NCBI GenBank assembly: GCA_020847635.1 | Contig: JADLBQ010000036.1 | Location: 1-48,669, forward strand | Reading direction: 5' to 3' | Source of the DNA: Bacteroidia bacterium | Lineage (GTDB): Bacteria; Bacteroidota; Bacteroidia; AKYH767-A; OLB10 | DNA: 48,669 nt | Shown here: positions 4,928 through 20,573 of the stretch, in pieces | Numbering within the stretch: the first letter of the stretch is position 1 | Layout of the letters: each line of letters opens with the position of its first letter | Notes under the pieces: generated by a model | Seen by the model: only the letters and a program-made list of their open reading frames with translations | The model's database searches: none | What the model was told of the DNA's origin: nothing | Program-made: the position numbers and the translations under genes

Positions 4928-4935
4928 TATCTTTG
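4928..4935 (+). promoter_or_regulatory. -7 element of SRP RNA promoter
   Basis: TATCTTTG is an exact TAnnTTTG match ending 4 bases before the paired 5' end of the SRP RNA at 4940, the expected distance to a transcription start. Confidence 0.7.
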
Positions 4936-4939
4936 CAGT

Positions 4940-5035
4940 GGGTAAGTCTTATACGACCAGCTCCCGTGAACCTCCCCAGGGCCGGAAGGCAGCAAGGATA
5001 AGCGGTCGTAGCGGTGCGATGTAAGTAGCTTACCC
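4940..5035 (+). ncRNA. ffs: SRP RNA, small bacterial type (4.5S-like)
   Basis: The RNA component of the signal recognition particle, which binds Ffh and targets nascent membrane proteins. The universally conserved apical part is present: CTCCCCAGG, then GCCGGAAGGCAGCAAGG with the GGAA tetraloop. The ends pair perfectly (GGGTAAG at 4940-4946 with CTTACCC at 5029-5035). The size of about 96 bases fits the small, Alu-less form. A run of T follows directly at 5037-5042, consistent with transcript ending there. Confidence 0.96.
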
Positions 5036-5042
5036 GTTTTTT
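5029..5042 (+). terminator. ffs: SRP RNA 3' end with T-tract
   Basis: The 3' strand of the closing helix (CTTACCC) is followed by GTTTTTT. The long RNA helix itself acts as the stem, so this is a probable intrinsic terminator of ffs. Confidence 0.55.
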
Positions 5043-5114: not shown

Positions 5115-5768
5115 ATGAAATTCTTTATTGATACCGCCAATCTGAACCAGATTAAAGAAGCAGCCAGCCTCGGTGTACTTGATGGGGTTACAACCAATCC
5201 GTCACTGATGGCTAAGGAGGGAATTAAGGGGAAAGACAATATCCTGAAACATTATGTTGACATCTGTAACCTGGTTGACGGAGATGTGAGTGCAGAGGTT
5301 CTGGCAACCGGATTCAGTGAAATCATTCAAGAAGGTGAAATGCTGGCTTCACTTCACGAGAATATTGTTGTGAAAGTACCCATGATAAATAATGGCCTGA
5401 AAGCATTGCGTTACTTTTCGGAAAAAGGAATCAGGACCAATTGCACACTTGTCTTTTCTCCCGGTCAGGCATTGCTGGCTGCTAAAGCAGGTGCTAATTA
5501 TGTTTCTCCATTCATTGGGAGAATTGATGATATCAGCAGTGATGGGCTTCAACTGATTGCTGATATCCGGCTGATTTACGACAACTATGGATTTGAAACA
5601 GAAATCCTGGCAGCCTCCATTCGTCATGCCATGCATATAATTGAATGTGCCCGCCTGGGTGCCGATGTTGCCACCTGCCCGCTCCAGCCCATTTTGGATT
5701 TGTTGCAACATCCGTTGACGGATAAGGGCCTGGAAAAATTTCTGGCTGACTCAAAAAAGTTTATTTGA
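5115..5768 (+). CDS. TalC-type transaldolase / fructose-6-phosphate aldolase family
   Basis: Cytoplasmic class I aldolase of the short transaldolase group (217 aa; the family is about 215-220). It starts with MKFFIDTANL and has the DGVTTNPSL segment near 23-31. The Schiff-base lysine is K87 in IVVKVPM. The stretch NYVSPFIGRIDD puts Phe133 where fructose-6-phosphate aldolase of E. coli has a tyrosine and transaldolase B a phenylalanine. On established structure-function work this favours transaldolase (pentose phosphate pathway, sedoheptulose-7-P/erythrose-4-P) over aldolase activity; that is inference from one residue. A near-consensus promoter element, CATTTTTG at 5085-5092, lies upstream. 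The next gene starts 7 bases after the stop, so it leads a co-directional run. Confidence 0.93.
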   Translation: MKFFIDTANLNQIKEAASLGVLDGVTTNPSLMAKEGIKGKDNILKHYVDICNLVDGDVSAEVLATGFSEIIQEGEMLASLHENIVVKVPMINNGLKALRYFSEKGIRTNCTLVFSPGQALLAAKAGANYVSPFIGRIDDISSDGLQLIADIRLIYDNYGFETEILAASIRHAMHIIECARLGADVATCPLQPILDLLQHPLTDKGLEKFLADSKKFI

Positions 5769-5775
5769 ATGGCAA

Positions 5776-7431
5776 ATGGTTTTAACAAGTAAAAAAAAAT
5801 CCTCAGTTTCAATTTCTAAAATCGAAAAAGGAACTCTGGATGCTGTTCCGGGTTTTGAAAAATTTGCAGTTAAGCATGAAAAGATTTTATTCTGGGTTAG
5901 CCTCTGCCTGGCCTTCGTTTTATCGGTAATGCTTTTTGATGTCAAGATGAGTGAAGGCAATGATGACTCAGATTACATTGAAGGTGCATTCAAATTTTCA
6001 AAAGACTTCAAAAGTTATTATAATGTAAAAGCACCGTTGTATCCGATGCTTTTAAGTATTCCGGTTTCAATCTGGGGAATGAATGTTCCGCTCCTGAAAT
6101 CATTTTCTATTGTTTTTAATCTTTTACAGATTGTTTTGCTGTATTATTCCTTTCGCAAAGTCATTCCGCTAAGTATTCTGTTTGCAGTTTTATTATTTAT
6201 TGCAACCAACAGCTATTTCCTTTACTTTTCCAGTCAGACTTACACTGAAGCATTCTTTTGTTTTCTTCAGGCATTGTTATTCCTTTTTATATATAAATCT
6301 ATTGCTGATCCGAAAAAAGGATTCAGTAAAGAACTTGTGTGGATTGGATTTACCCTGTTTCTGCTGACTCTTACCAAGAATATTTCAATTGGAGCAATCC
6401 TGGCTGTTAGCATATTTTATCTGTTGATCCGAAAATACAAAACCCTGCTTTATGTTCTTGGTACATTTCTTCTTTTCCGGATTCCTTTTGAAATTACCAA
6501 GTCTATGATCTGGGGAACTACCAGTCAGTTCTCCAATCAGTATCAGATTCTGATACAGAAAGATCCTTATAATGCAGCAAAAGGTGTAGACCATTTCTGG
6601 GGATTCATGGGTCGGCTTTCGGATAACACGATGATTTACATCGGCAAGCGATTCTATCAGATTACCGGATTGGTAAGTGATGATACAACAACTTAGTCCC
6701 CCGGTCTGGTTTTTATTTTTTCAATTTTAATTCTGCTGTCCGTTTTTGCAATCATCAGACGTTCCAACCGTTTGTTATTGTTTACTCTGATTTATACATT
6801 AGTGATGGCTGGTCTCACTTTCTTTGTTCTGCAAACCAACTGGGATCAGCCCAGGATGGTGATGGTGTACGTGCCATTTATGTTAATGCTGATCTATAGC
6901 GGTATCTATTATGTATTTAGCAGCCAGAAAATACTCAGAACCTCCATTTTTACAGTTATGGTTATACTGTTTTCATTTGGCGGCCTATTTAAAACAATGG
7001 GTAAAGCAGTTAATAACCTCGGTATTCTTAAGCATAATTTATCAGGTGATAGCTTTTATGGTTATACAGATGACTGGTCAAACTTTCTGAAGTTAAGCCG
7101 TTACTGCGGTGACAGCCTTCCCGAGAAATCGCTGGTTGCCTCACGTAAAGCCCCCATGTCATTTATCTATGCACGAGGTAAAGAGTTCTATCCGGTTTAT
7201 ACGGTGTTCAGCTCAGATCCGGATTCTACCCTGGCTATTTTAAAACGAGATCATGTGACCCATGTATTAATTGCAAGCCTGAGAAGAAACCCGAAAAAAA
7301 AGGATGGCTATGTCATTAACACCTTACATCGGCTGTTTGTCCCTATTGCACAAAAATACCCAGAGAAGCTGAAACTGATCAAACAGGTTGGTGAATCCGA
7401 GCCGGCCTATTTATATGAGATACGATATTGA
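5776..7431 (+). pseudogene. GT39/ArnT-like membrane glycosyltransferase interrupted by one in-frame TAG
   Basis: Polytopic membrane protein of the GT-C type, resembling GT39 enzymes that use polyprenyl-phosphate sugars. The reading frame is open from 5776 to 6693, meets TAG at 6694-6696, and continues open in the same frame to 7431. Read through, it is 551 codons, a normal family length, with a hydrophobic stretch resuming right after the stop (SPGLVFIFSILILL). An acidic loop (EGNDDSDYIEG) follows the first membrane segment, where GT-C enzymes keep catalytic acidic residues, and a soluble C-terminal part follows the last. No frameshift is visible. It could be a recent nonsense mutation (CAG to TAG fits), an assembly error, or read-through. 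The 3' part has an internal ATG at 6772, so two fragments could be made. The downstream methyltransferase begins at the base after its stop. Confidence 0.8.
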
Positions 7432-8157
7432 ATGAATCAACGAATTATAAACGAACTTGAGCATGGGAAAAAGCTGCTTGCCGAGGGTGCCGAGTCAGTA
7501 TGGAATTGGGAAAGCGCGGCAGGAAAAGTCAGAGCGGACAGACGGGCCGGGTTACTGGCCAGCTACTCCAATCTGAAACCCGGTGAGCCTGCTCTTGAAA
7601 TCGGCTGTGGTACCGGATTGTTTTCAAATAAATTTTTTAAACTTACCCATGCTGACATAACGGCAACTGATCTTTCACAGGACCTGTTAAACGTTGCCAG
7701 AATGAAATATCACCAAATCAGATTTAAAGTTGAGGATGCGATGAGTCTGAGTTTTGAGGATAATCGGTTTCAGGCAGTTTTTGGAAGTTCGGTCTTGCAT
7801 CACCTGGACTTAAAAAAAGCGGTTACTGAAATCAGGAGGGTCTTAAAACCCGGAGGCCGGATGGTATTTGCTGAGCCGAATATGCTTAATCCGCAGATTT
7901 TCATTCAGAAGAATATTCCGTTCATTAAAAAGTGGCTGGGTGACTCACCTGATGAAACTGCCATTATCCGTTGGCAATTTAAAAAACTTTTAAAAGAAAC
8001 CGGCTTTAACAATATCCATATCTTTCCTTATGATTTCCTGCATCCTGCAACACCACCCCTGATGATTGGCTTTATCAATTCAATAGGTAAAACCATTGAG
8101 CGAATTCCGGGCTTACGCGAGATTGCAGGGTCTGTCATAATTTATGCTGAAAAATAG
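7432..8157 (+). CDS. Class I SAM-dependent methyltransferase
   Basis: Probable small-molecule or glycolipid methyltransferase of the Methyltransf_11 type (241 aa). Motif I is LEIGCGTG at residues 55-62, the acidic end of strand 2 is in ATDLSQDL, and motif IV/post-motif region reads FGSSVLHHLD followed by EIRRVLKPGGRMVFAEPN. Its ATG directly abuts the stop of the interrupted membrane glycosyltransferase (TGA then ATG), and the next gene starts 2 bases after its own stop, so it is translated from the same message. The N-terminus (HGKKLLAEGAESVWNWESAAGKVRADRR) is typical of methyltransferases found next to polyprenyl-sugar pathway genes. The substrate is not known. Confidence 0.88.
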   Translation: MNQRIINELEHGKKLLAEGAESVWNWESAAGKVRADRRAGLLASYSNLKPGEPALEIGCGTGLFSNKFFKLTHADITATDLSQDLLNVARMKYHQIRFKVEDAMSLSFEDNRFQAVFGSSVLHHLDLKKAVTEIRRVLKPGGRMVFAEPNMLNPQIFIQKNIPFIKKWLGDSPDETAIIRWQFKKLLKETGFNNIHIFPYDFLHPATPPLMIGFINSIGKTIERIPGLREIAGSVIIYAEK

Positions 8158-8159
8158 CT

Positions 8160-9572
8160 GTGCAGTATCTGTCATATTTTGAAAAACTGGCCCCTGATCG
8201 AATCCGTATCCGCAAACGGCATTCCTATTACTGGAATGATATTACGTTTTTCTGTAATTATTTTTCTCATGAAACTCTTTCAGTGCTCGAGATCGGATGC
8301 GGAACCGGAGAATTACTAAATGAAATTAAAGCCGGCCGCAAAACCGGAATTGACTTCAGCCCAGCCATGATTAAAGAAGCAAAAAAGCAATTTCCTGGTC
8401 TGGACCTGAGAGTGATGGCTGCTGAAGACTTAAGATTGGAACAGAAATATGACCTAGTAATCCTCTCAAACCTGATCGGTTATGTAACTGATATTCAAAA
8501 AGTATTAGAACAACTTCATAATGTTTGTCATGAACGGACAAAAATCATTGTCACCTTTCATAATCATTTATGGGAACCCTTACTCAAACTGGCTGAGTGG
8601 CTCGGGATGAGAACCAAATCGCCATTATTGAACTGGCTTACCAAAGATGATATGCGTAACCTGTTAATGCTTTCTGGTTTTGATTGCTATCGCCAGACTG
8701 GCAGAATGATTTTCCCGGTTTACATTCCGTTGCTGTCGGCCTTTCTGAATAAATTTATCGGCAAGCTGCCATTATTCCGGCTGATGTCAATCACAGGATA
8801 TGCTTTTGCAAGACCAACTTCAAGACTCAAACACGAAGAGACACATACGGCCTACTCTGTTTCTGTTGTCATTCCGGCCCGGAATGAAAGTGGAAATATT
8901 GAAGATGGGTTGCTCCGGATTCCTCAATTTGGAAAATGGCAGGAAGTGATTTTTGTTGAAGGAAACTCAACTGATGATACCTGGGAGAAAATCCAGCAGC
9001 TTAAAAGCAAGTATGAAAATAAATATAAAATCAAGGCTGTAAAACAGGAAGGCAAAGGCAAAGCCGATGCCGTTCGAAAAGGATTTTCAATTGCTGAAGC
9101 CGATATTCTCATGATTCTGGATGCCGACCTAACGGTTCCACCTGAAGATCTGGAAAAGTTTTATAATGCCATAGCAACATCAAAGGGTGATTTTATTAAT
9201 GGCTCACGGCTGGTTTATCCAATGGAAAAACAAGCCATGCGGTTTTTAAATATGCTGGGGAATAAATTCTTCAGCCGTGCTTTTTCATGGCTGCTGGAAC
9301 AATCTTTTAAAGATACTTTATGCGGGACTAAAGTTATTTTTAGAACAGATTATCAACGGTTGATCACCAACCGGAAGTTTTTTGGTGATTTTGATCCTTT
9401 TGGAGATTATGATCTGATTTTCGGAGCTTATAAACTCAATCTTAAAATTGTTGAAATACCAATCCGCTATCGTGAACGAACCTATGGTTCAACCAACATT
9501 TCAAGATTCAGACATGGAATGATTCTGCTGTATATGTGCCTGTTTGCTGCCCGTAAAATAAAATTCATGTAA
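8160..9572 (+). CDS. Methyltransferase-GT2 glycosyltransferase fusion
   Basis: A two-domain protein of 470 aa. Residues about 1-200 are a class I SAM methyltransferase (motif I LEIGCGTG at 43-50, IDFSPAMI next). Residues about 233-460 are a GT2 transferase of the dolichyl/polyprenyl-phosphate sugar synthase type: VVIPARNESGNIE, then FVEGNSTDDT, and the metal-binding LDADLTVPPEDL near 320. The C-terminal hydrophobic stretch (MILLYMCLFAA) may touch the membrane. The start is GTG at 8160, 2 bases after the upstream stop; no other early start is available. With the GT-C gene upstream it makes a plausible pathway: the GT2 domain loads a sugar onto polyprenyl phosphate, the GT-C enzyme transfers it, and the methyltransferases modify donor or acceptor. 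That pathway is inference. Confidence 0.88.
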   Translation: MQYLSYFEKLAPDRIRIRKRHSYYWNDITFFCNYFSHETLSVLEIGCGTGELLNEIKAGRKTGIDFSPAMIKEAKKQFPGLDLRVMAAEDLRLEQKYDLVILSNLIGYVTDIQKVLEQLHNVCHERTKIIVTFHNHLWEPLLKLAEWLGMRTKSPLLNWLTKDDMRNLLMLSGFDCYRQTGRMIFPVYIPLLSAFLNKFIGKLPLFRLMSITGYAFARPTSRLKHEETHTAYSVSVVIPARNESGNIEDGLLRIPQFGKWQEVIFVEGNSTDDTWEKIQQLKSKYENKYKIKAVKQEGKGKADAVRKGFSIAEADILMILDADLTVPPEDLEKFYNAIATSKGDFINGSRLVYPMEKQAMRFLNMLGNKFFSRAFSWLLEQSFKDTLCGTKVIFRTDYQRLITNRKFFGDFDPFGDYDLIFGAYKLNLKIVEIPIRYRERTYGSTNISRFRHGMILLYMCLFAARKIKFM

Positions 9573-19173: not shown

Positions 19174-20573
19174 ATGAGAAATGCTATTCTTTGTATTTAC
19201 TTTCTTCTGAGTATAACATTAGTAATAGCTCAAAATGAAAATAACATTTGGTATTTTGTCTCTTAGGCTGGAATAGATTTTAATTCAGTCGTACCTGTTT
19301 CCCTATTAAAGAGTCAATTATTCACTTATGATAATTCAAGCACAGTCTCAGATACATCAAGGAATCTTTTGTTTTATACCGATGATGTGAATGTTTGGAA
19401 TGCAAACCAGCAAATTATGTCAAATGGATTAAATATTGGTTGAAGTAATACCGGTGGGCAAGCAGCAGTTATTTTCAAACAACCAATACAACAATCTATT
19501 TATTACATCTTCACTGCTGATACATTTGGGGTATCTGGAGGACTTAAATATTCAGTTGTAGATATGAATGGTTTAAATGGATTAGGAGCAATTATACCAA
19601 AAGCGTTGTTCTTCAAAATCCATCAACTGAAAATCTGGTAGGCATTTCTTCTTGCAGTAGGGAATATGGCTGGTTAACCACACACAAGGGAAATTTAAAT
19701 CAATTTCATTGTTATGCAATTGTGTATAATGGCTTGAATCCCAAGCCTGTTATAAATACTTTCGGGGTATATCATCCGACTGAACCATGGGGCGTGGACA
19801 ATAATACAGCGGGGCAACTAAGTATCTCAAAGTACGAGGTAAAGATAGGTTGTGTACAATTCCTGTCAGGCAATATCGAGGTTTTAGATTTTAATTTAAA
19901 TACAGGAATTGTATCTAATCCCATATTAATTAATACAACTTATCCGGGTGCATAGGGACTGAAATTTTTGCCTGATGAAACAGAAATACATGTAACAGTT
20001 ATACATCTCCGCTTATTCATCAATTTGATGTGACATTAGGAGATACTACTACGAATACAAATTCTGATCTAATGGTAGGTACAATTCCAACAATAAATTG
20101 TCCAGGATTTTGAGGCTCAACTGGTTATATACAACGCGCACATGCTGATAAAATCTACAAAGCACATTGTGAACAGAGCTATATTAGTGTAATCAATGAT
20201 CCTAATCAATCAGGTGTACTATGCAATCTGGTTAATATGGATGTAGCTCTAACAAGCAATCTCTCTGCATTCGGATTATTTAGAGGTGTTGGAGTAGAAT
20301 GTATGTAAACTGGTAAGTTAGAAACCCATATAGAGGATGTATTTAATATCCTCCTGAATTCAAGTAATGGAAAATTTAATTTAACTACAACTTCAAAGAC
20401 TGCAATTAAAGACTTAAAATTGAAAATATATGATACTTTGGGGCAATTGTTTTTTCAGAACCCTGAGTTCTACAAGTATAATAAATATTGAATCTAATCT
20501 TTCAGCAGGGTGCTATACAATATTATTGGATTTGGATAAACAGAAAATTATTAAAAAAATAATTGTGTGCTAG
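19174..20573 (+). pseudogene. Decayed gene for a T9SS-exported WD40/beta-propeller-like protein
   Basis: The frame opens with a signal peptide (MRNAILCIYFLLSITLVIAQ) and NIWYFVS*AGIDFNS, recognisable as the Bacteroidota 'WYFG-x-AGxDF' repeat protein start. There are stops in frame at 19264-19266 (TAG) and 19441-19443 (TGA), a frameshift near 19600, another TAG at 19953-19955, a frameshift around 20000-20030, further stops near 20112 and 20305, and a last frameshift near 20460. Between them the sequence keeps family pieces such as NLLFYTDDVNVWN, NPSTENLV and INTFGVYHP. The end (IKDLKLKIYDTLGQL, then SAGCYTILLDLDKQKIIKKIIV) is a type A T9SS sorting domain. The many lesions mean it is dead. Its last bases overlap the 3' end of the convergent asnB-like gene. 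Confidence 0.88.

Follow-up and report, generated by a model that had tools for sequence, protein, structure and literature searches.

A single in-frame TAG in a conserved GT-C glycosyltransferase-like gene of a Bacteroidia bacterium, probably a recent nonsense allele

A single-copy membrane glycosyltransferase gene in the genome of a Bacteroidia bacterium is interrupted by one in-frame TAG, probably a nonsense allele of recent origin. There is only one stop, the remainder of the gene is conserved, the relatives are intact and TAG is in use as a terminator in this genome; that the stop base is real in the organism we infer. In other words, a very recent nonsense substitution at 6694-6696 would have struck the only copy of this GT-C membrane glycosyltransferase gene. 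Under the standard code, translation would end after 306 residues, short of the last membrane helices and of the conserved C-terminal domain, and the product would presumably be inactive; the allele could be fixed in the population or could be a polymorphism that the assembly happened to catch. A lone nonsense codon in one draft genome is in itself an ordinary event. Its value is as a clean case in which to set a young nonsense allele against an assembly error, with a single-copy gene, a fully constrained remainder and intact neighbours.

The window, by which we mean the whole stretch of DNA analysed (48,669 nucleotides), is all of contig C36 in a genome of 2.58 Mb and 94 contigs. The features that matter here are these:

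4933-5039, + strand: Bacteroidales small SRP RNA (RF04183, 97.2 bits), close upstream of the aldolase gene
5115-5768, + strand: fructose-6-phosphate aldolase/transaldolase family gene, upstream and intact (TIGR00875 over its cut-off)
5776-7431, + strand: GT-C glycosyltransferase-like gene with one in-frame interruption, from frame reading and from the resemblance of the read-through protein's predicted fold to GT-C enzymes
5776-6696, + strand: part read under the standard code, 306 residues as far as the TAG; it includes the acidic residues D63/D64 and all helices through residue 297
6694-6696, + strand: the in-frame TAG, at aligned residue 307; the loop that holds it varies in length and joins helices 274-297 and 309-329
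6697-7431, + strand: part past the stop, 244 residues, still conserved; it contains 48 of the 74 near-invariant columns, along with the last membrane helices and the C-terminal domain
7432-8157, + strand: SAM methyltransferase, downstream and intact, starting on the base after the TGA and ending in TAG
8160-9572, + strand: methyltransferase fused to a family 2 glycosyltransferase, downstream and intact

The frame opens with ATG at 5776, runs through 306 sense codons to the TAG at 6694-6696 and continues for another 244 to a TGA at 7429-7431. A sequence-only reading of this DNA had held that the TAG is the sole interruption, that the frame stays open past it and that intact partner genes follow directly, and each of these statements is borne out, the partners being the methyltransferase and the fusion gene of the list. 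In 4,000 trials of a first-order Markov simulation with the region's composition, an open run of 245 codons was never reached (mean run, 16), and therefore the downstream frame is not a product of chance; the two nearest relatives share 73% and 69% identity with its 244 residues, aligned over their whole length. In the window's own genome the gene occurs once.

What does the gene encode? The window's protein reaches the cut-off of no Pfam or NCBIfam family, but its predicted fold backs the GT-C glycosyltransferase identity given earlier. The model of the read-through protein, made with an alignment of the window and 54 of the 80 related loci described below (55 rows), has a mean pLDDT of 91.8 and a pTM of 0.90. 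Foldseek returns 21 chains at E<=0.001 (best E 3.5e-07), which we read from their descriptions as GT-C enzymes or complexes containing one, and the top rows of VIA-align lie at Z 20 to 23.5, with 306-448 residues aligned at rmsd 3.7-5.5 (ALG12 9s6t: Z 23.5, 411 residues, rmsd 5.5; AglB 3waj: Z 23.3, 425 residues, rmsd 3.9). Both searches lead alike to oligosaccharyltransferase subunits, PMT, ArnT and ALG12. With the solved GT-C enzymes (the STT3/AglB/PglB oligosaccharyltransferases, ArnT 5f15, PMT and ALG12 9s6t) the modelled protein shares the overall fold over most of its length and an early acidic pair, whereas sequence identity is only about 10-16% and the window copy is interrupted. That pair, D63 and D64, is invariant in the 55 aligned sequences and sits in the first loop, between the helix ending at 52 and the helix starting at 63; the acidic motif of the first loop has a catalytic role in GT-C enzymes. 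The model supports a polytopic membrane protein with a GT-C fold. From this fold and the nearby family 2 glycosyltransferase gene, the donor would probably be a polyprenyl-phosphate sugar, and the set of neighbouring genes suggests a role in lipid-linked or surface glycan synthesis. The family is present in many Bacteroidota genomes (loci L038-L117) and may, with a member here for which no Pfam or NCBIfam model passes, serve the specialist more than the stop does.

Among the best 80 of 103 relatives (loci in named genomes, mostly Bacteroidota metagenome assemblies where the nearest are concerned), none has an in-frame stop inside the match and all lengths are divisible by three; retaining the best may favour unbroken copies, and three of the 80 (L104, L110 and L115) are partial matches that start 2-19 bases in from the edge of the stored sequence. 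A survey of 42 genomes of the order gives 13 matches at E<=1e-20, with 11 uninterrupted, the window carrying its one TAG and a further genome, G012, carrying several frame breaks; several of these genomes are the same records as the relatives' loci (G005 and L038, for example), and the two counts are not independent. From the residue alignment we left out the three broken loci of G012 (L017, L021, L023) and the distant L018-L020 and L022, and L008 runs off the end of its contig. The relatives, a set that may omit records of this or very near genomes, yielded no independent assembly of the same species. On G012 contig C26 the GT-C copy (L017) is broken in frame, in places near homopolymers, and the aldolase gene beside it loses its frame near the end in a run of T, as judged by eye; the breaks suggest indel errors in that assembly.

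The stop itself falls in a variable place. Residue 307 lies, in the predicted model, in the loop 298-308 between two helices, and in 81 sequences the loop is variable in length (between 17 and 35 residues in the columns of 298-315), with an entropy of 3.16 bits at column 307. In the best 80 of 103 relatives the residue aligned there is, among others, V in 26, T in 11, L in 9, I in 8, F in 7, E in 6, and Y and Q in 1 each, and the position would, by this alignment, tolerate many residues. It had been proposed that a change of CAG to TAG explains the stop in one step, a suggestion that the nearest relatives do not support: the seven top-ranked have F, F, Y, T, T, T and T at the aligned site, and the one glutamine among these 80 relatives belongs to a distant sequence. 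The site is so variable that the ancestral residue cannot be inferred.

The part of the gene beyond the stop shows no sign of having been released. Counting as near-invariant any column with an identity of 95% or more in the other sequences, we find 74, with 26 before the stop and 48 after it; the window departs from none of them, as do 43 of the best 80 of 103 relatives. Nonsynonymous divergence after the stop relative to before it is 0.236/0.287 (0.82) and 0.208/0.299 (0.70) for the two nearest relatives, and these ratios are not above the range of 0.78-1.08 in six pairs of intact relatives. That is, neither the 74 columns nor the nonsynonymous ratios reveal relaxed constraint past the stop, and a young lesion would show none either. 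Without decay in columns or divergence ratio, the lesion must be very young, not real, or still decoded, and because synonymous sites are near saturation its age cannot be dated. The cost of truncation is easier to judge. The 306-residue product has neither the last membrane helices nor the C-terminal domain with its RKAPMSF stretch, which is invariant in the 55-row alignment; with 48 of 74 near-invariant columns lying past the stop, truncation should destroy function, and the product should be inactive.

Intact relatives and a window copy that is truncated ahead of its conserved parts count for a nonsense allele. Against it count the lack of a second lesion or of relaxed constraint, which is equally expected from an assembly error or from a working read-through, and the adjoining genes, which are still intact. 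The earlier reading had offered a very recent loss, an assembly error or a regulated read-through, and the first two still stand, whereas the third is left without support.

The runner-up is a consensus error or a strain mixture in a metagenome assembly, with the gene intact in the living organism; we regard it as a real contender, if a distinctly less likely one than a recent loss. One isolated base with no other lesion and with constraint kept is what such an error would leave, and the near relatives that we recovered are themselves metagenome assemblies. There is also precedent, in that the portion of PMC11017572 considered here traces many of the supposed pseudogenes of public genomes to errors of assembly; like the window's TAG, they are single isolated lesions in otherwise healthy genes of draft genomes. 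Unlike those cases as that portion describes them, the sampled part of this genome has no excess of such stops, and the stop is known here from the assembled sequence. That sample was the window plus 400 kb of the genome (448,669 bases), and it holds 30 pairs in which two long segments follow each other directly in the same frame, all except 5776-7431 having an ATG, GTG or TTG at most 22 codons from the stop, in a screen that detects single in-frame stops only and is blind to frameshifts and heavily decayed genes. With 1 pair in 30 lacking a nearby start, stops of this kind are not widespread in the assembly as a whole; moreover, the genome scores as 99.8% complete and 0.06% contaminated, and the site lies at least 5.8 kb from a contig end. 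For the nonsense allele, in turn, the part of PMC7918605 considered here describes in-frame stops in bacterial genes as widespread and mostly short-lived, and the window resembles them in its single stop, its constrained downstream part and a likely short life; the focus there is on stops common to two or more species, whereas the window's stop is in one genome. As far as these portions go, both papers fit the window's case and neither decides it.

Could occasional read-through of the TAG yield a little full-length enzyme beside the truncated form? Full constraint after the stop would be explained, and at a site that tolerates many residues and changes of length any inserted residue could be harmless. 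We nevertheless consider this unlikely. No stop stands at the site in any of the best 80 of 103 relatives, no CUA anticodon was found by ARAGORN among the 40 tRNAs from the tRNA places located (an incomplete list, in which at least an Ile tRNA is missing), RF1 is present over its cut-off, and no stem or stable structure stands out 3' of the stop (fold z = -0.51). With TAG an ordinary terminator besides, regulated read-through has no support. A particular form of read-through, a low-level switch in which near-cognate decoding of the TAG, in a tolerant loop, would keep the GT-C enzyme at a low dose, is a shade less likely again; if true, it would account for a C-terminal domain that is still under full constraint. 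A conserved recoding site was rejected, as was the two-gene design once entertained, since stops and splits at the site are both absent from the best 80 of 103 relatives, and the 11 uninterrupted matches in the order show no split either.

Two genes in this one genome, with the C-terminal half restarting on its own and the halves assembling, strike us as slightly more doubtful still. There are potential starts, a TTG 25 codons and an ATG 36 codons past the stop, but both (residues 333 and 344 of the read-through frame) fall inside the model's helix 332-351, and the gene is split at the site in none of the best 80 of 103 relatives.

That TAG is a sense codon in this organism we give almost no credence and have rejected on these data: it has in its favour the open frame beyond this TAG and nothing else, whereas TAG ends 38 of 367 long segments in the 448,669 bases (TAA, 207; TGA, 122), RF1 is retained, the methyltransferase 7432-8157 has its terminal TAG within 0-2 codons of the ends of nine relatives, and a DEAD-box helicase ends in TAG ahead of an EamA transporter gene.

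Elsewhere in the window, at 19174-20569, lies a decayed pseudogene of a 466-residue protein whose frame is open in the relative G005. It is in four pieces (63%, 59%, 41% and 44% identity) over all three + frames, with several in-frame stops, and our screen of long segments missed it. It looks like an old loss, unlike the single TAG at 6694, and gene loss therefore does occur in this genome.

The locus may also have a history of its own. In its tree the aldolase gene at 5115 groups with the same-genus genome (88% identity, support 94/95), and the fusion gene at 8160 is 83% identical to its counterpart in that genome. By contrast, the GT-C gene (support 99/98) and, more weakly, the methyltransferase (86/86) both cluster with another genus. 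Within 5115-9572, the GT-C and methyltransferase genes may, judging by these trees and identities, have been exchanged as a pair between conserved flanks.
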